This document shows, piece after piece, positions 45,837-56,390 of a stretch of 64,000 nucleotides of DNA (its first letter is position 1; each line of letters opens with the position of its first letter). The notes beneath the pieces were generated by a model. That model worked only from the letters and a program-made list of their open reading frames with translations. It ran no database searches and was not told where the DNA came from. Position numbers and translations under genes: made by a program. Source of the DNA: Acidimicrobiales bacterium (GTDB lineage: Bacteria; Actinomycetota; Acidimicrobiia; Acidimicrobiales; SZUA-35); the NCBI GenBank assembly GCA_020629155.1, contig JAHDDW010000004.1, positions 6,018 to 70,017 on the forward strand. The letters run 5' to 3'.

Positions 45837-45842
45837 TATGCT
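45837..45842 (+). promoter_or_regulatory. -10 box of leaderless promoter deciding the lipoprotein start
   Basis: TATGCT six bases before ATG 45849. Confidence 0.6.
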
Positions 45843-45848
45843 GGGACA

Positions 45849-47060
45849 ATGCGCGCAAAGTATAAAATTGGGTTCACTGGGTTAGTAGCTTTCTGTTTGT
45901 TTGGGGCAGCTGCTTGCGGAAATAGCGATTCGACTTCTTCTGCTGGGGCAGAGTCCGCTGATCAGACTGCAGCATCTGCTGTAGCCAGCGAAGAGGAAGT
46001 ATATGTCTTGCCAGAAAACAATGGATTGTTATTCGAAGATGTTGCAGCTGCACCTGTAGCTTTTGATGCGCCAGTAACAACGATTCCTGAGGTTAAAGTC
46101 TCAACTACATTTGTCGAAAACTATACGACAACCAGTGAGGTTACTACTACAACTGCCCCTACAACAACTAGCTCTGAGCCGACCTTTGTTATTAACGTTG
46201 CTCCCGAGTCAGATGTAACTTCTGGTCAAGCTTCAATCTCATCTTCAACATCTACGATCGATGAGAATGTTATAGAAATTGGAGAAGTGGCTAGTGATGA
46301 GCCTTTACGCCGTTTGCTGAGGCCAGCAAATTGCCTCTCAACCAAGTTGAAAGTCGACAATCTTGTTGAGCCTTTCGATGATCCTGCAAATGATGAAGTC
46401 TATAAACGTTTCGTGTATGACGCTTTCTGGGCTTGTCTCTATAGGCCAGTAGATGTCATTCCTGATGATGATGGCTGGTTAATGCGTTTGAAAGAAACTG
46501 CTGCTCAAGAGTTTGTGACGGTAGCTCATCTAGAAGCTGTTGCTGCGGATATGCTTGTAAGAGGTATTCATCCATCACGAGAAGCAAGTTGTATGCGCGG
46601 CACCTATGAATGTTCTCCTGAGTTGGATTTAAAAAATGCTGAAGGGCAACCCATTCCGATTGAGTGTGCATTCGCAAAAGGGCAAGCTGGTTATGAAAAA
46701 ATTCAAGTATCGCACGAAAATGCTAAATTGCGAATGCAAAGTCTCTGTCCTGATGCAGAACTCGATATTGAAGTAGTTGTTCCAGCGGTTCCAGTTCCCG
46801 TCGAGAAACCGCCAGCAGCTCCAAAAGTAAATCGCCCAGGGGGAGGGACTGCTGCAGAAAAAACTACGACAACAACGAATCCAAGGGTTCCTATGCGTGA
46901 TCATCGTTCAGGTGTGTTGGGTACCCAGACTATTCCAGATCACCGTTCAGGTTTGAAGGGTAGCTCATCTGAAAGTAAGAAAAAATCTTCATTGACGATA
47001 GGCCCAGTATTCGAAAAGCCTGCAACTACTAAGCCGTTTCGATTTTATGATTATCAATAG
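45849..47060 (+). CDS. Six-cysteine (C-L-Y-R-P) family lipoprotein, member 1
   Basis: 403 residues. Signal peptide with lipobox GAAAC, an acidic and Thr/Ser-rich linker (about 25-155), then a domain with six cysteines: PANCLS, AFWACLYRPVDV, SREASCMRGTYECSP (two), IECAF and SLCPD. The same cysteine order and the C-L-Y-R-P core recur in the genes at 47130, 50330 and 51057. This member is the longest and has a Pro/Thr-rich tail with a DHRSG repeat (two copies). No known family is recognised. It is probably lipid-anchored outside the cell with three disulfides. Confidence 0.82.
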   Translation: MRAKYKIGFTGLVAFCLFGAAACGNSDSTSSAGAESADQTAASAVASEEEVYVLPENNGLLFEDVAAAPVAFDAPVTTIPEVKVSTTFVENYTTTSEVTTTTAPTTTSSEPTFVINVAPESDVTSGQASISSSTSTIDENVIEIGEVASDEPLRRLLRPANCLSTKLKVDNLVEPFDDPANDEVYKRFVYDAFWACLYRPVDVIPDDDGWLMRLKETAAQEFVTVAHLEAVAADMLVRGIHPSREASCMRGTYECSPELDLKNAEGQPIPIECAFAKGQAGYEKIQVSHENAKLRMQSLCPDAELDIEVVVPAVPVPVEKPPAAPKVNRPGGGTAAEKTTTTTNPRVPMRDHRSGVLGTQTIPDHRSGLKGSSSESKKKSSLTIGPVFEKPATTKPFRFYDYQ

Positions 47061-47117
47061 TATCAATTTAACAGACGTAGAGTTTGTTCCCTTCTGTAAT
47101 ATTCGTTTTGAAATGGT

Positions 47118-47123
47118 TAGCAT
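47118..47123 (+). promoter_or_regulatory. -10 box of leaderless promoter, lipoprotein member 2
   Basis: TAGCAT six bases before ATG 47130. Confidence 0.65.
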
Positions 47124-47129
47124 TAAACA

Positions 47130-47864
47130 ATGAGCACAAAAATTAACATTTCTATTCTGTTGCCACTATTTCTTCTTTTTTCTGCTTGTGGCGGTGGGCA
47201 AAAAACTCAAGAAGCTGTCGAAGAGAATAGTGCTGAGTCTGAAGGGGAAGTCTCCGTCCCATCTGAGTCGTTAGATTTTGAGGTTGCTGATGAAACCCCT
47301 GTTACAGATGCAGAGAAAGAGTCTGTGTTATTGTTTGATGGTTTTAGCTCATCTTCGGTTGTCGAAAAAGATGAACCTGAGGTCTTAGAATTTGGAGAAG
47401 AAAAAACAACTACTAGTTCGAACAGCGGTTCGTCTACCACGCAGACGCAAACAACGAACGCCCCTACAACCACAGCAAAGCCATCAAAACCGCAGCTTGT
47501 TTTCCTAGCTCCGCAGGATTGTAAATCTACTCCGACTGGTGGAAATGCTATAGACTTTGTTGAAGCTCTTTACCGAAACTGTTTATATCGTCCTATTGTC
47601 GCAGATAACAATCAGATATGGGTTAAACAAATAAACGATGGTCTTAAGAAACCTGAAGAGATAAGAGACATCAGTATCTACACCTCCCCTGAATCTCGTT
47701 GTTTGCGTGGGGAGATTGCATACAAGGACAGTTGTCCAGATAGTAAAGTTCTTGAAGATGCGAAGGGTTATGAAATTTTCTGTGACCCTGCGAGTTTCAA
47801 AGCCCCTCAATATACTGCTCGTGCAGCTGAACGGTTAAGAGTCGTGTGTTCAAATGCTAAGTAG
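47130..47864 (+). CDS. Six-cysteine (C-L-Y-R-P) family lipoprotein, member 2
   Basis: 244 residues. Lipobox FLLFSAC, acidic linker with a Thr/Ser/Gln-rich stretch, then the domain: PQDCKST, YRNCLYRPIVA, ESRCLRG, DSCPD, IFCDPAS and VVCSNAK. All six cysteines align with the other three members although overall identity is low, so the disulfide frame is what is kept. It has its own leaderless promoter, 69 bp after member 1. Convergent with the propeller gene at 47868, with only 3 bp between the two stop codons. Confidence 0.82.
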   Translation: MSTKINISILLPLFLLFSACGGGQKTQEAVEENSAESEGEVSVPSESLDFEVADETPVTDAEKESVLLFDGFSSSSVVEKDEPEVLEFGEEKTTTSSNSGSSTTQTQTTNAPTTTAKPSKPQLVFLAPQDCKSTPTGGNAIDFVEALYRNCLYRPIVADNNQIWVKQINDGLKKPEEIRDISIYTSPESRCLRGEIAYKDSCPDSKVLEDAKGYEIFCDPASFKAPQYTARAAERLRVVCSNAK

Positions 47865-47867
47865 CCG

Positions 47868-48947
47868 CTACGGAAAATAAGTAGCTGGTGAGTCAGCGTT
47901 GGGTAAGAAAAGTTCTGGCTCCGAACCGTCAGTAATGTTTAAACTCCAAATATCAAATTCTGGTTGGATCTCTTCAGGTTTTTCATTTGTGTGTAAAGCG
48001 TACAAGATAGTGTCATCAGACATCCAGTTAATCTGGTCATCAACCGACCGTGTCTCTCCTAACGGTGTCCGCTCGCCAGTAGCAACATCGATTGTCACCA
48101 ACTGAAAGTTTTCGCCATCCATTTCTTTCACCACAAGGGTAGAGCCATCAGGCGATAATGACGGGCAGCTACCTAACCAGCCTGTCGGTTCTAGCGTTCT
48201 AGTACTAATAGTGCCTTTCAAAATGTCAATATCAGTACCTAGACCGTGCGTGATATAAAATTGGTCATCGTCAATAAAGGTGACACCCCAAAAATTGCCT
48301 TCGGGATCAACGTATTTTGGGTCATCAGATTCGACTTTGAAATTACGAGCACCCCATCTTCTGTTAACGTTTTCTACGCTGGCAAACTCTACAAAGGTCG
48401 AAAAATTGCCGACGTCTTGATAACTTGTTCCAGAGGCAAATACTGTTGAGGCTGTCCACAGACCACCAGGAGAAACTTGCGCTCGACTCGGCAGAATCGT
48501 GTTCCATTCATCTCGTTTCGGCAGATCAGGTTTTGTTAAATCAAAAAACTCTGCGACGTATGCCGAAATGCCTCGTTCTCCTAAACAAAACCCAGTATGA
48601 GCCGCAAGGTGAACTCGTGTGCAAGTCTTATCAAATAGTTCACGACTGCCGTCGTCGTTGCGCAGCGCAAGCTTGCCGTAATCATCGCCTGGAACCCTGT
48701 TGACAACAAGCACGTCACCTTGTTCGAAGTCAACGTCGGCTCCAAAAGAAAGCTCTTCTGGGGGAGAAGCTAGCGTAGAGCGAGGCGCCGTCTTCGAAGA
48801 TTCAAAGGACGCTACTCGTTCACTAGCCTCCTGGTTTCGTGCTGCCAGGTCCTTATTTTGTTGCGATCGGACGTTGAGGATGTAACCTCCAGCGCCGAGC
48901 ATCAACACTAAAGCGATTGCCGTAATCAGTAGAACTTGTTTTTTCAT
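47868..48947 (-). CDS. Membrane-anchored TolB-like beta-propeller protein
   Basis: 359 residues. One N-terminal helix (VLLITAIALVLMLGAGGYIL) without a lipobox Cys, then repeats of the PD40/WD40-like type: SRAQVSPGGLWTASTV, CPSLSPDGSTLVVKEMDGENFQLVTIDVATGERTPL and DDQINWMSDDTILYAL. These S-P-D-G-(x)-x-(L/I) blades mark a propeller that probably binds another protein outside the membrane. Its start overlaps the MFS transporter stop by 4 bp, so the two are co-translated. Confidence 0.75.
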   Translation of the reverse strand: MKKQVLLITAIALVLMLGAGGYILNVRSQQNKDLAARNQEASERVASFESSKTAPRSTLASPPEELSFGADVDFEQGDVLVVNRVPGDDYGKLALRNDDGSRELFDKTCTRVHLAAHTGFCLGERGISAYVAEFFDLTKPDLPKRDEWNTILPSRAQVSPGGLWTASTVFASGTSYQDVGNFSTFVEFASVENVNRRWGARNFKVESDDPKYVDPEGNFWGVTFIDDDQFYITHGLGTDIDILKGTISTRTLEPTGWLGSCPSLSPDGSTLVVKEMDGENFQLVTIDVATGERTPLGETRSVDDQINWMSDDTILYALHTNEKPEEIQPEFDIWSLNITDGSEPELFLPNADSPATYFP

Positions 48948-50197
48948 GCGTGAGCCACCTGTATTTTAGAAAGTGAAAAATATGCAAAAACTAGAGTGAT
49001 AAAAAGGCCACCAGAAAATAGTGAAAGCGCTAGTGGTAACCCAAATTGCTGCCACAACAAACCAAAAAGTGGTGCTGCGATAAGTTTGCCAAGCGAAATC
49101 GCTAACGTGCTTGATGCAATAGCAACACCTCGCGAATCTTCAGGAGTTAAAGAACTGATAATCGCTGGCACGACACCATCGGTTGCTGCGTAGTACACAC
49201 CTAAAAGCCCAAGAGTTGCCAACCCGATCGTCGTCGAGATAGATGTCGTAAGTAAGAGAATATATGCTGCGAGAAGAAACAGATTACCTGCTAAAAAAAC
49301 GGCTGTTTTGCTGAACTTGTCAGCAAGTGAACCTATTGGTACCGCCAGAACTAAATAGGTGACAGCAGTTCCAGAAAAAAGCAGCGGGAAAAAGACTTTA
49401 TCCATCGAGCTTTCTTGGAAAATAATAAGATACAAAAACGAGTCGCTAATAGTCATGAAACTAACTGCTGCGACAGCTAGGCAAACCAGTCGAGTGTTTG
49501 AGTCAGCGAGTGTTTGTTTGAGGCTAGCCAAAAGGTTTTTTTTGGCTTGTATTTTTGTCTTGATAACAGGCTGTTGGGCCAGAAAAATAATGAAACTTAA
49601 CCCTATAAATGCCGTTGCAACACTCATTGCAAAAACACTTTCGTATGCTCCTGGCGTGACTTCAAGCAGCAAATACGCCACGATAGGCCCAAGTAAAGCG
49701 CCAAAGGTATCCATAGCTCGGTGTGCGCCAAATGCGGTAGCCAGTCTATCTTTAGAAACACTCAACGATATGAGGGCGTCTCGTGGGGCGACTCGGAGCC
49801 CTTTGCCGACACGGTCAGCCAGAAGAAATAATGTTATAGGCAGCCATGTTAAAAAGCTGGTCAGGAAAAGCCCAACTCTTGTGAAAGCCGAGATGCCGTA
49901 GCCAGTGGCCGCTATGCGTTTATGGTTTTGGTGTCGATCGCTTAGCGCACCGCCCCAGAGTCGAAGCGACGCGTTAGCACCCTGATAGGCCCCTTCAAAA
50001 AGTCCATAACTGAGATAGCTGAAACCAAGCGCGGAAGTGAGATACAGCGGTGTAATCGCGACAATCATTTCTGAAGAAATATCGGTGAAAAGGCTTGTGA
50101 AACCCAAAGCAAAAATATTTCGGTGGATGTGTTGGTTTTGGTTGCTCGTCGCTGGTTGTGTCCCAGTAGGTTTTTTACGAACGCTTGCTAGATACAC
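48944..50197 (-). CDS. Major facilitator superfamily transporter
   Basis: 417 residues with twelve hydrophobic segments. The first cytoplasmic loop reads WGGALSDRHQNHKRI, an MFS motif A (G-x3-D-R/K-x-G-R/K type), with a second copy in PIGSLADKFSKTA. The N-terminal GFTSLFTDISSEMIVAITPLYL resembles drug or sugar efflux members of the family. Substrate unknown. The next gene, a beta-propeller, overlaps it by 4 bp. GTG start with no clear leaderless box. The gene is flanked on both sides by six-cysteine lipoprotein pairs. Confidence 0.88.
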   Translation of the reverse strand: MYLASVRKKPTGTQPATSNQNQHIHRNIFALGFTSLFTDISSEMIVAITPLYLTSALGFSYLSYGLFEGAYQGANASLRLWGGALSDRHQNHKRIAATGYGISAFTRVGLFLTSFLTWLPITLFLLADRVGKGLRVAPRDALISLSVSKDRLATAFGAHRAMDTFGALLGPIVAYLLLEVTPGAYESVFAMSVATAFIGLSFIIFLAQQPVIKTKIQAKKNLLASLKQTLADSNTRLVCLAVAAVSFMTISDSFLYLIIFQESSMDKVFFPLLFSGTAVTYLVLAVPIGSLADKFSKTAVFLAGNLFLLAAYILLLTTSISTTIGLATLGLLGVYYAATDGVVPAIISSLTPEDSRGVAIASSTLAISLGKLIAAPLFGLLWQQFGLPLALSLFSGGLFITLVFAYFSLSKIQVAHA

Positions 50198-50317
50198 CCC
50201 ACTAATATCGGCATATATCAGCTTTTTATTAACCGATAGGTAGAGTGCCTGAAAATAGATACTGGAGAGGACATGGTAGTGCGCTGGCGATGTCTACTAA
50301 AAAGTCATCCTCTGTAG

Positions 50318-50323
50318 TAGTAT
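50318..50323 (+). promoter_or_regulatory. -10 box of leaderless promoter, lipoprotein member 3
   Basis: TAGTAT six bases before ATG 50330. Confidence 0.65.
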
Positions 50324-50329
50324 AGGGGT

Positions 50330-50995
50330 ATGAAGGTTCGCAAAATAGTTGCTATAGCGGTAGGTTCTGTGTTTGTGGCGTCAGCATGTGGTGGCGGTGG
50401 AACTAGCGCATCAGAAACCTCGATCGAACCTGTTCCACAGTCGGTTGAGGTCACAAACCCTGTTCTAGATTTCAATGTTCCTGAGACAACTCCTTCTACA
50501 GCGCCACCGACTACTGATAACACTTCGCTATTTGAAGGTTTTGTGCCTGATGAGGATCAGAGCGAAATGATTGTCGAGCTTGATTCGCCTAATGTGGCGA
50601 AAGTTGCTGGCGAAACCGTCTTTGCTTTGGAGGCCCCTGGCGAATGTAAAGAAGTGCCGATCGGCGTTGATGTTGAGCTGAAGCAGATTATCTTCGATTT
50701 ATATTGGAGCTGCCTGTATCGCCCTATTGTTGTGACTGATGATGATTTCTGGTTGACGTTAGTGCTAAGCGGAGAGCATAGCAGAGAGTATCTACGAGAA
50801 AAAGGTGTAGGGTCATCTCGCGAAGCGAGCTGTATGCGTGGTGGGCTATGCGATTCTCCTATCCTGGTTGATTTAGGTGAAGGCGTGCGTGCTGAGTGCA
50901 GTTTCGACTCCATAGTGGTTCCTCATGAGCGAGCTGGTATTCGTTTGCAAAGTATTTGTGGCAACTCACTACGCTATACGGTTGCTGCAAAATAA
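50330..50995 (+). CDS. Six-cysteine (C-L-Y-R-P) family lipoprotein, member 3
   Basis: 221 residues. Lipobox FVASAC followed by a glycine run, a linker with SLFEGFVPDEDQS, then APGECKEV, LYWSCLYRPIVV, SREASCMRGGLCDSP, AECSFDS and SICGNS, all six cysteines. It is closest to member 4 (51057), sharing SLFEGF, DSPNV and APGECK, so the two are a tandem duplicate. Promoter and ATG are in the leaderless arrangement. Unknown function. Confidence 0.84.
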   Translation: MKVRKIVAIAVGSVFVASACGGGGTSASETSIEPVPQSVEVTNPVLDFNVPETTPSTAPPTTDNTSLFEGFVPDEDQSEMIVELDSPNVAKVAGETVFALEAPGECKEVPIGVDVELKQIIFDLYWSCLYRPIVVTDDDFWLTLVLSGEHSREYLREKGVGSSREASCMRGGLCDSPILVDLGEGVRAECSFDSIVVPHERAGIRLQSICGNSLRYTVAAK

Positions 50996-51044
50996 GCGCA
51001 AGAAGGCTGTGTCACGCCGATCTGATTTTGCGCCACTAGCTGAG

Positions 51045-51050
51045 TAGTAT
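51045..51050 (+). promoter_or_regulatory. -10 box of leaderless promoter, lipoprotein member 4
   Basis: TAGTAT six bases before ATG 51057. Confidence 0.65.
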
Positions 51051-51056
51051 GGAGTT

Positions 51057-51731
51057 ATGAACAGAAAAATAGTACTGTTTAGTTTCTTCCTGGCAGCAGC
51101 GGCTTGTGGCGGCGGAGAAATAGAAGCAACGACAATTACAACAGTTGAAGCAACTAGTGTCACTTCTGTTGGGGTTGCAGAACCGACTGTTGCTTTAGAT
51201 TTCGACATTCCTGAAGCTGAAACAACTAATACCACAGCGGCAACAGATGACAGCCTTTCACTATTTGAAGGTTTCACTCCTGAAGAGGTAGATCAAAGCG
51301 ATATAGCTATCGATAACGACTCGCCAAATGTAGAGAAAGTGGCTGATGAAATAGTGTTTACCGTCAACGCTCCTGGCGAATGTAAAAACGTGCCTATCGA
51401 TGCAGCTATTGCAACGAAACAGGTGATCTTCGATTTGCATTGGAGCTGTTTTTATCGGCCGAAGGTTATAACTGACGACAACGATTGGCTGCGTGGTATC
51501 GCCGCAGAAAGATATGATCGGTCTGAGCTGAGAGAGAAGGTTGCTGACGAAACACGAGAGTCTGATTGTTTCAAAGGCGGCTCCTGCGAAGGGGTTACTA
51601 TTGCGCTTGATCTAGGCGAAAATGTTAGAGTTGTCTGCGATTTCGATTCGGTTGCTGTCCCAAATGAACGTGCGCAAACTCGTTTGCAAAGCGTGTGCGG
51701 AGACACAGTTGAGATCACTATGGGCAGTTAA
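51057..51731 (+). CDS. Six-cysteine (C-L-Y-R-P) family lipoprotein, member 4
   Basis: 224 residues. Short signal ending in AAAAC, linker, then APGECKNV, LHWSCFYRPKVI, RESDCFKGGSCEGV, VVCDFDS and SVCGDT. The core motif is C-F-Y-R-P here, and M-R-G becomes F-K-G, so these positions tolerate change while the cysteines do not. A tandem copy of member 3. A family B repeat lies a few bases after its stop. Confidence 0.84.
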   Translation: MNRKIVLFSFFLAAAACGGGEIEATTITTVEATSVTSVGVAEPTVALDFDIPEAETTNTTAATDDSLSLFEGFTPEEVDQSDIAIDNDSPNVEKVADEIVFTVNAPGECKNVPIDAAIATKQVIFDLHWSCFYRPKVITDDNDWLRGIAAERYDRSELREKVADETRESDCFKGGSCEGVTIALDLGENVRVVCDFDSVAVPNERAQTRLQSVCGDTVEITMGS

Positions 51732-51816: not shown

Positions 51817-53427
51817 TTAGTCGCTGTTTCGTATCACTAGCAGCCACGTTAAAAGACCAGAAACGCTAAGCAAGATTAGTGATAGCAGCCCCGATTTGGT
51901 TGCGAAACTTTCACCTTCAGCGCTGAAAATAGCGGTCGCTAACGTCTCAAATTCGATCGGGGCGAGCAGCAGCGTTGCCGGCAGTTCTTTAATCGTGGCC
52001 AACATGATTAGCCCAGCGCCTGCGAGTAGCCCAGGTTTCATCAACGGCCACTGTACTTCTTTCCATCGTTTAAGAATCGAATCGCTAAGTAGCCTTGACG
52101 AGTCTTTCAAAGAATGAGGCACCGCTTGGAGCGCTGTTTCAGCCGAACCAAGACCAAGCGAACCAAAATGGATGATATAGCCAAGCAAGAGCAAATAGAA
52201 GCTCTGATAGATAAAAGTGAAACCTGGGACTTTGAGCACCCATGTTACTAGTGTTAAAGCGATGATAACGCCTGGTGTTGCATACCCTGCCAGAATAGGT
52301 GTGCGAATAAACTTCGTAAATAATGATGTCGACCGTATTGTTGTCATAGCGACAGGGATAAGCAACAGCATCGTTACTACTGCTGTGATAGTGCTAGCTG
52401 TTGCGCTGGCGCTTGCCAGGTCAAGCACTTCTTTGGCTTCAATATTTGCTGCGCCTAGTCCGTTTCGCAGGCGCATTACAAGACCAGTTAATGGAAAAAA
52501 TAAGGCGAACAGCGGGACGGCTCCGACGAGTAGCGCCGCAGCGTAACGCCAATACCCAAGAGGCACAAGCCGTCGTTGTCTTCTAGACACGTCGCTTTGC
52601 TGACCATTGCCGCTGTATCTAAATTGCAGAAAAACGGCTGCTAAAGCGGTTGTGCCTAACGTTAGTGCAGCGCTGAAACCGACAAAAATATCGACATCAG
52701 AGGAGGAAGTAGCAGAGAAAATAACGGTCGAAAGGCTGTCATAGCCAAGCAAATCAACAGCGCCGTAGTCACTGAGACAGTAAAGAAAAACGATGAGCGC
52801 GCCGCCTGCGATCGCAGGTTTAATTTGCGGCAGCGTCACCCTATAAAAAATAGAGCGTTGTGATAGGCCTAAAAGGCGAGCGCTTTCTTCGACGTTGTAT
52901 CGTAGAGAAACAAATTTAGCTTTTGTGGTCAAAAACACATAAGGGTAGGTAAACAGCGTCATGACTAGCCATGTCGGCCAGAACCCCCGAGGTCGCCGTA
53001 TCTGTTCAACTCCTGCCTTTTCTAACAGCCAAGGAAGAAGGCTGTCTTGTTCAAAGATTGCGATAAGAGCAGTGGCGCCTATAAACGAAGGTAGCGCTAA
53101 CGGCATAATAAACAGGACAGTAAAAAGTTTTTTGTAACGTAGCGTAGTGCTAGTGACAAGCCAAGCCAGCGTGGTCCCCAAGATGGCAGTTGCCGCAGCA
53201 ACAGTAACAGAGAGCAGCAAGGTGAGCCCGAATGGCTCTTTGATTCGTGTGTATGCTTGGCCGATCGCTTCTTGTGTCGCCCCGATAGTGTTCCAACTTA
53301 CCGCTGTCCAAAAGAACGAATAAACCCCTGGAAGCAGAAAAACGCAACCCATGATAAAGCCATAGGTGGCGAGTAGCGTCTTTCTGTTTGAGGCTGCGGT
53401 CGTGTTCATCTGCGATGTCCCTCGCAT
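51817..53427 (-). CDS. Fe(III) ABC transporter permease (FbpB/SfuB type)
   Basis: 536 residues with twelve or so helices in two homologous halves, as in the fused iron permeases. Each half has a binding-protein-transport loop: SARLLGLSQRSIFYRVTLPQIKPAIAGG in the first and SSRLLSDSILKRWKEVQWPLMKPGLLAG in the second (E/S-A/S-x2-L-G motif, second one weaker). It is downstream of the binding-protein gene on the same strand. No ATPase gene (fbpC) is found beside them in the window. Confidence 0.88.
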   Translation of the reverse strand: MRGTSQMNTTAASNRKTLLATYGFIMGCVFLLPGVYSFFWTAVSWNTIGATQEAIGQAYTRIKEPFGLTLLLSVTVAAATAILGTTLAWLVTSTTLRYKKLFTVLFIMPLALPSFIGATALIAIFEQDSLLPWLLEKAGVEQIRRPRGFWPTWLVMTLFTYPYVFLTTKAKFVSLRYNVEESARLLGLSQRSIFYRVTLPQIKPAIAGGALIVFLYCLSDYGAVDLLGYDSLSTVIFSATSSSDVDIFVGFSAALTLGTTALAAVFLQFRYSGNGQQSDVSRRQRRLVPLGYWRYAAALLVGAVPLFALFFPLTGLVMRLRNGLGAANIEAKEVLDLASASATASTITAVVTMLLLIPVAMTTIRSTSLFTKFIRTPILAGYATPGVIIALTLVTWVLKVPGFTFIYQSFYLLLLGYIIHFGSLGLGSAETALQAVPHSLKDSSRLLSDSILKRWKEVQWPLMKPGLLAGAGLIMLATIKELPATLLLAPIEFETLATAIFSAEGESFATKSGLLSLILLSVSGLLTWLLVIRNSD

Positions 53428-53481
53428 CGCGAATGGACCAACCGTAGTATCGGCCTCAAATTTTGTATGATCGAAAATCGG

Positions 53482-54534
53482 CTAGTCGAAATCGGCGTCA
53501 TCGATCAGCTTTTGTGTTGTTTCTAAACCTTCGCCAAGTTCTTGATAATCGATATCGCTGACATCGAAGAAAGCAGCTTCTGGAAGTTCGCTGTTTGGAG
53601 TGATGCCATCTGCTAGAGGATATTCGAAGGTTTCGTCAACGAAATATTGTTGCGCCTCTTCTTCTAAAAGCCATGTGATAAGTGCATCTGCACCTTCTTG
53701 ATTGTCGCTTGCTTTTATTTTTGCGATTGGGCTGATCATCAAAAAACTGCCAGGATCGTCAGCATCAAATTGATGGTTTACGCCTTTGTGGTTTTCTGAT
53801 TCTGCAAGCTTTTGGTAATTGTAGTAGTGGTTGACAAGCCCTACTTTGACTTCGCCACTGCCGACAGCGTCGACAATCGGACCGTTTTTAGGGTAGGTGA
53901 CAGCTTCGTTGGCAGCCATATCTTTAAGCCACTGCGCAGTTTTTTCTTCGCCGTCTATCTCGCGCATTGCGGTCACAAAATCTTGGAACGATCCGTTATC
54001 AGGAGCGATGCCGACTTGCCCTTTCCATTTCGGATCGGTTAAGTCATAAACTGATGTCGGAAGATCACTAGCGTCGACGGTGTCTGAGTTGTAGACAACG
54101 ACGCGTTGCCGGCCTGTAACGCCTGTCCATAAACCTTCTTTGTCGCTGACTGTTTCTGGCGTGAGCGCAAGGATCTCATCTGAAAGCTCTGCAAGCTGCC
54201 CGCTTTTTTCTAACGTGCCGATTGGGCCAGGAGTTTTGGTATAGAAAACATCTGCTGGTGTTTTGTCACCCTCGGTTTTGATAAGTGCTGCCAACACGCC
54301 AGAGTCGTTGTATTGCACCTTGACGTCATAGCCGCTTGCTGCTTCGAAAGCTTCTATGGTGGGCTCGATAAGTTCTTTTGATCGTTCTGAATAAAGAACG
54401 ATTTCTTTCTTCTCGCCGTCAGTGCTAGAGGAATCTGCCGTCGAGCTAGCAGAGCCACAGCCGCTAGCTAAGCCAGCAAATGCTAGCGTTGTGAGAATAA
54501 GGGTCTTCTTTTTTGAAAAGGTAGGTAACTTCAT
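53482..54534 (-). CDS. Fe(III) ABC transporter substrate-binding lipoprotein (FbpA/FutA type)
   Basis: 350 residues from ATG 54534; a longer frame upstream exists but a TACACT box lies seven bases before this ATG. Lipobox LASGC. The fold begins EIVLYSERSKELIEPTIEAFE and continues with ADVFYTKTPGPIGTLEKSGQL and VGIAPDNGSFQDFVTAMR. The iron-binding tyrosine pair is seen in GLVNHYYNYQKL. It would capture ferric iron outside the membrane and deliver it to the permease encoded next to it. Confidence 0.9.
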   Translation of the reverse strand: MKLPTFSKKKTLILTTLAFAGLASGCGSASSTADSSSTDGEKKEIVLYSERSKELIEPTIEAFEAASGYDVKVQYNDSGVLAALIKTEGDKTPADVFYTKTPGPIGTLEKSGQLAELSDEILALTPETVSDKEGLWTGVTGRQRVVVYNSDTVDASDLPTSVYDLTDPKWKGQVGIAPDNGSFQDFVTAMREIDGEEKTAQWLKDMAANEAVTYPKNGPIVDAVGSGEVKVGLVNHYYNYQKLAESENHKGVNHQFDADDPGSFLMISPIAKIKASDNQEGADALITWLLEEEAQQYFVDETFEYPLADGITPNSELPEAAFFDVSDIDYQELGEGLETTQKLIDDADFD

Positions 54535-54541
54535 TTCAAGA

Positions 54542-54547
54542 AGTGTA
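54542..54547 (-). promoter_or_regulatory. -10 box of leaderless promoter deciding the binding-protein start
   Basis: Reverse-strand TACACT seven bases before the ATG at 54534. Confidence 0.6.
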
Positions 54548-54678
54548 TCGGATAGTTTCTGTAAAATGTTAAGCAATCCTAACATTTCGTAGAAAGTCTC
54601 TGTTCGTTCTAAGAGCAATGAACCAAAAGAACCCTTAAAGGCTATCTCTATATGGTTTTTCTACCAAAATGCTTTTCT

Positions 54679-55398: not shown

Positions 55399-55806
55399 CT
55401 AGTTCATTAGTAGAACAACAAATGGGGTTCCTGCTTGTTCCCATTTTTTAGCGACGCTTTCTAGAATGTCGCTGGCTTTTTCGGCTGCGTCAGGGTTGGC
55501 GTCTCGAAAAAGTTTGCTGTGTTCAAGAACGATAAGAAACCCGTTAGCTTTGTGCCATGAAAGGTCAGCTAGACAGTCTTCTAGCGCATCCCAGTTAAAA
55601 CCGAAATGGTCTGGAAATTTTGCTATGTTTGCCCACGCAGTAAAATAGTCTTCTTTGTTTGTGAGCTGTTTGCCGTTGAGATAGAACACTTTCCACTCGG
55701 CGGCTCCAGCCGCACTAAAAAGATCCTCAAGATCGGTAGTGCCGCCAATGGCATGCACTCCAGATTCGAGGCTCCCGGTAAACATGTTCGCAACGTCTAT
55801 TTCCAT
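55399..55806 (-). CDS. Barstar-family ribonuclease inhibitor
   Basis: 135 residues from ATG 55806, with GAAGG six bases upstream. The barstar fold is shown by WKVFYLNGKQLTNKEDYFTAWANIAKFPDHFGFNWDALEDCLADL, where the helix and the following acidic residues (Asp and Glu in DALEDCLADL) would fill the RNase active site, and by FLIVLEHSKLF. It overlaps by 10 bp the gene for a barnase-type RNase, so it almost certainly protects the cell from that enzyme before export. Confidence 0.88.
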   Translation of the reverse strand: MEIDVANMFTGSLESGVHAIGGTTDLEDLFSAAGAAEWKVFYLNGKQLTNKEDYFTAWANIAKFPDHFGFNWDALEDCLADLSWHKANGFLIVLEHSKLFRDANPDAAEKASDILESVAKKWEQAGTPFVVLLMN

Positions 55807-56390
55807 GACCAACCTTCGATTTCTTTAAAGCTAGTGTAATGGTCTGAGGTGTAATATCCTTCGCCATCGCCGCCTGTGACTATTCTTCTAGCTCCTCGAT
55901 CACGAGATCCTGGCGTTTCGACGGTGAACTCTCGATAATATTTGCTGTGCTCTATCGGTAGAATGCGCTCCCTGTTCTGGAACGTGCCATTATCTTGTCT
56001 GTAAGGGTAGGGGCCCTTATTCTCGATGAGTTCAAGGGTATCGAGCGCTTCTGGAGGTAGAGAATCAAGAACAATCGTTGGTAGGTCACTTTTTTGTATT
56101 ACTGCATTCGCTGAAGACTCCTGAGAGGTAGTGCGTGAAAGTGACGTTGTCTCGACTCGGGTCGTACCGGTAGTTTCTTGTGTCGTTTGAGTCTCGTTGA
56201 TTCTCAACGTTGAAGCTACGCCATTTTCTTGTTCTGTGTTAGATGGAGCACTGTCTTGCGTTGTGCCTATCTCGGTTTGCGAACTTGAAAGAGTGTTTGA
56301 TGGTTCGTCAGCTGTTGCAAACCATCCAAAGATGCCAACGAGTAATGCGATGACAGCGCCTGCGATAGTGCCTAGTTTCTTTTTCTGCAT
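55797..56390 (-). CDS. Membrane-anchored barnase-type guanyl-specific ribonuclease
   Basis: 197 residues. Residues 5-26 are a hydrophobic signal anchor without a clear cleavage site, residues 28-100 a Thr/Ser/Glu linker, and 115-197 the microbial RNase N1/T1 domain: GPYPYRQDNGTFQNRERILP, then YYREFTVETPGSRDRGARRIV and YYTSDHYTSF. The catalytic residues are expected at Glu158, Arg168/169 and His184. RNases of this family cut single-stranded RNA after G. The tether is unusual, as most members are freely secreted. The barstar inhibitor gene follows and overlaps. ATG lies six bases after TAGCAT. Confidence 0.88.
   Translation of the reverse strand: MQKKKLGTIAGAVIALLVGIFGWFATADEPSNTLSSSQTEIGTTQDSAPSNTEQENGVASTLRINETQTTQETTGTTRVETTSLSRTTSQESSANAVIQKSDLPTIVLDSLPPEALDTLELIENKGPYPYRQDNGTFQNRERILPIEHSKYYREFTVETPGSRDRGARRIVTGGDGEGYYTSDHYTSFKEIEGWSWK

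Follow-up and report, generated by a model that had tools for sequence, protein, structure and literature searches.

DUF4214 (PF13946) is a widespread protein domain that has no established function and is greatly expanded in the bacterial family to which the organism studied here belongs. It has been described as a likely surface-anchoring domain in segmented filamentous bacteria (PMC12780176). The literature on the domain is thin, and no tested function was found in it. DUF4214 is encoded in all 37 genomes of the family (f1) that were scanned, with 11 to at least 78 domain matches per genome, and is hardly found in most other families of the same order, an exception being a genome of family f3 (G040) with 65 matches. 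In the genome under study, at least seven unrelated exported domains are joined to DUF4214, the fusions comprising DUF1501, an M10-like peptidase, fn3, YkuD, NAGPA, M23, Excalibur and SpoIID. Here we compare these proteins with a group of small lipoproteins, encoded in the same genome, that have a conspicuous frame of six cysteines.

Results

The window, that is, the whole 64-kb stretch of DNA that was analysed, contains four lipoprotein genes, all on the forward strand, whose products have a common C-terminal six-cysteine domain (Table 1), as the preliminary description had it. With copy 3 as the query, a genome-wide search recovered the other three at E-values of 2e-62, 1e-10 and 2e-8, and the mutual similarity of the four copies is far above chance. 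Copies 3 and 4 are indeed a tandem duplicate, with about 51-52% identity, and a recent duplication does not account for copies 1 and 2, since their domains are only 24% identical; identity among the paralogues is 18-51%. The original count of four holds for the window, and the total for the genome is six. Copy 5 is a lipoprotein encoded on contig C18 (L004) beside nhaA and an aldehyde dehydrogenase gene. Copy 6, on contig C5 (L043), is flanked by bioD and cas3; it keeps the order of the six cysteines, lacks a lipobox and is probably anchored in the membrane by an N-terminal hydrophobic stretch. Its gene is followed after 29 bp by cas3, part of a type I-C-like cas3-cas5c-cas8c cluster that is read in the same direction, and is preceded by bioB-bioF-bioD-like genes.

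Table 1. Location of the six-cysteine genes, their domains, putative promoter hexamers and neighbouring genes. Coordinates are those of the window unless a locus is named.
Feature	Location	Strand	Basis or detail
Copy 1, lipoprotein, 403 aa, Ser/Thr-rich stalk and additional Pro/Thr/Lys-rich C-terminal tail	45849..47060	+	sequence
Copy 2, lipoprotein, 244 aa; sub-threshold Pfam DUF4214 match at residues 141-177	47130..47864	+	E 0.0066
Copy 3, lipoprotein, 221 aa	50330..50995	+	sequence
Copy 4, lipoprotein, 224 aa; tandem duplicate of copy 3 (52%)	51057..51731	+	sequence, genome search
Copy 1 six-cysteine domain	46305..46760	+	Cys 162,196,248,255,273,300
Copy 2 six-cysteine domain	47493..47861	+	Cys 131,151,191,202,218,240
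Copy 3 six-cysteine domain	50615..50977	+	Cys 106,128,168,174,190,210; DUF4214-like core ~50660-50836
Copy 4 six-cysteine domain	51351..51716	+	Cys 109,131,171,177,194,214
-10-like hexamer TATGCT, copy 1, 6 nt before ATG	45837..45842	+	sequence
-10-like hexamer TAGCAT, copy 2	47118..47123	+	sequence
-10-like hexamer TAGTAT, copy 3	50318..50323	+	sequence
-10-like hexamer TAGTAT, copy 4	51045..51050	+	sequence
Propeller-like protein, neighbour by synteny, considered outside the system	47868..48947	-	TolB-type, E 6e-5
MFS transporter, neighbour by synteny, considered outside the system	48944..50197	-	MFS_1, E 1.6e-31
ABC permease and solute-binding lipoprotein	51817-54618	-	SBP_bac_6, E 1e-23
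Barnase-type ribonuclease, then barstar gene	55399-56390	-	PF00545, E 3e-23; PF01337, E 5e-28
Copy 6	L067:5105-6004	-	cas genes at L067:243-5075 (-)

Read by eye, copies 1-4 begin with a signal peptide that has an (A/S)-A-C-G lipobox at its end; the box reads AAAC in copy 1, FSAC in copy 2, ASAC in copy 3, AAAC in copy 4 and ATAC in copy 5, and the lipobox cysteine that marks bacterial lipoproteins is thus present in copies 1-5 and missing from copy 6. In copies 1-4 a Ser/Thr-rich stretch lies between the lipobox and the C-terminal domain, and the only cysteines besides that of the lipobox are the six within the common domain, plus, in copy 1, one inside the signal peptide (C16). The six cysteines, conserved and even in number in proteins predicted to be exported, are probably paired as disulfides in the mature heads, and the lipoproteins are probably exposed at the cell surface. 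Outside the cysteines and the YRP core the copies had been described as very diverged, the disulfide frame appearing to be what selection keeps; divergence is indeed strong, but the Trp, the (S/T)-x-E motif and an Arg near C6 are kept as well, and copies 2-4 have in common a stalk motif, LDFxV...LFxGF, outside the six-cysteine domain. Each of the four lipoprotein genes has a TANNNT hexamer placed precisely 6 nt upstream of its ATG, compared with 2.1% of ATGs in the window, a spacing that fits the proposal of a separate leaderless promoter for each of copies 1-4. Elsewhere in the window, the plan of anchor, stalk and head recurs in the barnase-type ribonuclease, which has a hydrophobic stretch at the N-terminus, a stalk rich in Ser and Thr, and a head that is toxin-like.

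The weak Pfam match of copy 2, which missed the cut-off, was the starting point for a test of relationship to DUF4214. None of the six copies reached the gathering cut-off of that model (23.2 bits) in Pfam model searches. The best score was obtained by copy 5 (21.5 bits in a genome scan; 19.1 bits, E 0.0014, in a separate Pfam search), followed by copy 2 (16.9-18.9 bits), and copies 1, 3 and 4 gave no individual match. When the whole genome was scanned with the model, 33 of 37 matches were above the cut-off, mostly in multi-unit proteins; the four below it were copies 5, 2 and 6 (E 7e-4, 0.004 and 0.58) and one more match, within the reading frame of a genuine DUF4214 protein. Comparison of the six-cysteine profile with a profile of this genome's DUF4214 domains by hhalign gave a match over nearly the whole core, with a score of 37.3, an E-value of 1.4e-6 and a probability of 90, which is short of near 100. 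In controls, scores reached at most 15.0 among 100 column shuffles (18.7 with six members) and lay at 9.3-10.4 for reversed profiles. A reciprocal search of 38 other genomes of the same family with the six-cysteine profile, at a loose threshold, returned nine weak matches (E 0.002-0.08), eight of which fall in register on DUF4214 domains that score above the Pfam cut-off; the remaining one is in a frame with a stop. Other Pfam and NCBIfam matches, for example to MerP, fusolisin, New_glue and Cementoin, fell in the signal peptide or stalk, far below their cut-offs, and were rejected.

When 18 sequences were aligned together, Arg36 and Glu70 proved invariant and Trp46 and Ser68 almost invariant. 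All six copies have the Arg and the Glu of the DUF4214 core, five have the Trp, and most have Ser or Thr before x-E. Because of this match, the YRP core can be equated with the Tyr-x3-Leu-x-Arg helix of DUF4214. The core of the domain (C1-C3) is, on these comparisons, very probably a strongly diverged DUF4214. No relative of the C4-C6 tail was detected.

Structure prediction for the full domain from five family members alone gave an unusable model (pLDDT 45), and modelling of the core, from an alignment that included DUF4214 rows, gave four helices at a pLDDT of 73. Among solved structures the best matches of this second model were all phycobilisome linkers (Z 3.6-4.4, rmsd 3.3-4.8, 68-74 aligned residues), led by 3pru (Z 4.4, rmsd 3.3, 73 aligned) and 2l06 (Z 4.4, rmsd 3.7, 70 aligned); values of Z under 8 are weak evidence, and the match is not independent, since DUF4214 rows went into building the model. 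Sequences of true DUF4214 domains themselves have weak or sub-cut-off sequence similarity to the same linkers, one such protein of this genome matching PF00427 at E 2.4e-4, below the cut-off.

At an E-value threshold of 0.001, the six-cysteine profile found no other species among 198 genomes of relatives, 395 of the class and 396 of the phylum (overlapping sets), and no viral relative was found in viral contigs. The six-cysteine variant is therefore species-restricted among the genomes searched. Searches of other species with single sequences likewise gave nothing at this threshold beyond two marginal matches to the whole of copy 3, which were unconvincing, one (G064) lying over a frame with a stop and the other (G094) in the signal and stalk part.

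Discussion

Our preferred reading, to which we give a probability of about 0.5, is that these proteins are lipid-anchored, Ser/Thr-stalked and probably disulfide-braced heads, derived from DUF4214, that dock to or tether a component of the cell envelope. A single four-helix DUF4214 unit would have gained cysteines before helix 1 (C1), in helix 1 (C2) and in helix 4 (C3), with C4-C6 placed in an added tail some 45 residues long. Five of the six copies carry the head on a lipid anchor at the N-terminus and a stalk rich in Ser and Thr, and because of this arrangement it should extend outward from the membrane, either into the wall or through it. That DUF4214 is joined to chemically unrelated exported enzymes argues for attachment or docking rather than catalysis, and the lipoproteins would accordingly most likely be membrane-tethered, disulfide-stabilised heads whose binding target is a component of the envelope or another protein of the surface. 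Since to our knowledge there is no experiment on DUF4214 binding, the docking or tethering role is read from architecture, and we put it forward tentatively. Among ordinary DUF4214 proteins inspected for flanking cysteines (L009, L014, L016, L024 and L033), some, for example L016, L024 and L033, have their units flanked by one cysteine immediately ahead of the first and another behind the last. DUF4214 may thus have come to be braced by cysteines on more than one occasion.

The lipoproteins had originally been described as belonging to no named family, and a genuinely new disulfide-rich family would agree with the failure of any named family to pass its cut-off, with the lack of a solved structure found by sequence, and with the six cysteines and tail that ordinary DUF4214 does not have. 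The likeness to DUF4214 would then be due to chance or to convergence on a Tyr-x3-Leu-x-Arg...Trp helix pattern, which we consider improbable given the outcome of the reciprocal search and of the shuffled and reversed controls, and given the concentration of sub-threshold DUF4214 matches, genome-wide, on the six-cysteine copies. Together with the controlled profile-profile match, these results assign the core to a diverged DUF4214 and replace the original view. A functional unit with the MFS transporter and the propeller, for example in substrate capture or as assembly partners, is the least probable of the alternatives. In its favour, two copies do lie on each side of the operon in this genome, as first reported, with both operon genes on the reverse strand between the pairs; the MFS match is strong, with nearest matches largely in Actinomycetota, and the propeller match is weak. 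However, a genome of the same genus (G001) has dus, methylase, propeller and MFS genes in the same order (72%, 39%, 44% and 45% identity) with no six-cysteine gene between methylase and propeller nor upstream of the MFS gene, where rpiA follows. In G002, dus, methylase and propeller are kept, up to the contig end, without six-cysteine genes. The propeller-MFS pair is also kept in another genus (G006), and no lipoprotein match was seen in the stretch read around the pair of the other genus (L070). These genomes, and the different neighbours of copies 5 and 6, speak against the suggested tie to the transporter. On the simplest account, the methylase-propeller-MFS core was in place before the lipoprotein genes came to lie beside it, and the position of these genes therefore says little about function. 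The permease and solute-binding lipoprotein genes that adjoin copy 4 on the other side encode an ordinary importer.

Two further readings accept the anchored head and differ in what it would bind. The proteins might be membrane-tethered surface-recognition or decoy proteins (adhesins, or decoys for phages or toxins) that duplicate and diversify, with a target outside the cell. The extreme divergence of the paralogues, their absence from all other species searched and the architecture of a stalk with a small head would suit such a role, but no viral relative came to light in the viral contigs, and we regard it as unlikely, if the strongest of the competitors. It is considerably more doubtful that the six proteins serve as membrane receptors for DUF4214-tagged exported enzymes through DUF4214-DUF4214 contact. 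If that were true, the surface of an actinobacterial-type cell would have an enzyme arrangement resembling that of cohesin and dockerin, with the disulfide-braced variants as the anchored half. A small, single-unit lipoprotein of the disulfide type is an unusually tractable construct for finding the binding partner of DUF4214. More generally, a conspicuous cysteine frame beside a transporter can be a known module in disguise, and the link to its neighbourhood incidental.

Comparison with known systems

The likeness to the phycobilisome linker domain (PF00427) is confined to the weak fold similarity of the DUF4214-guided model: the six-cysteine domain has no direct sequence match to PF00427, whose members are cytosolic light-harvesting parts without cysteine frames. 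With DUF4214, the domain has in common the order of the helices, the Phe/Ile-x3-Tyr-x3-Leu-x-Arg pattern, the Trp of helix 2 and the Ser/Thr-x-Glu of helix 4. It differs in scoring below the Pfam cut-off and in being present as one unit per protein and not as tandem repeats, most DUF4214 proteins scanned here having at least two stretches, and it is combined with a lipid anchor and stalk instead of being fused to an enzyme. Judged from the alignment, the six-cysteine form is new in its cysteines and its C4-C6 tail, in having one unit only and in lacking the Gly of the Asp-x2-Gly turn. The finding is real but modest: a cysteine-rich variant of DUF4214, neither a family without relatives nor a transporter accessory.
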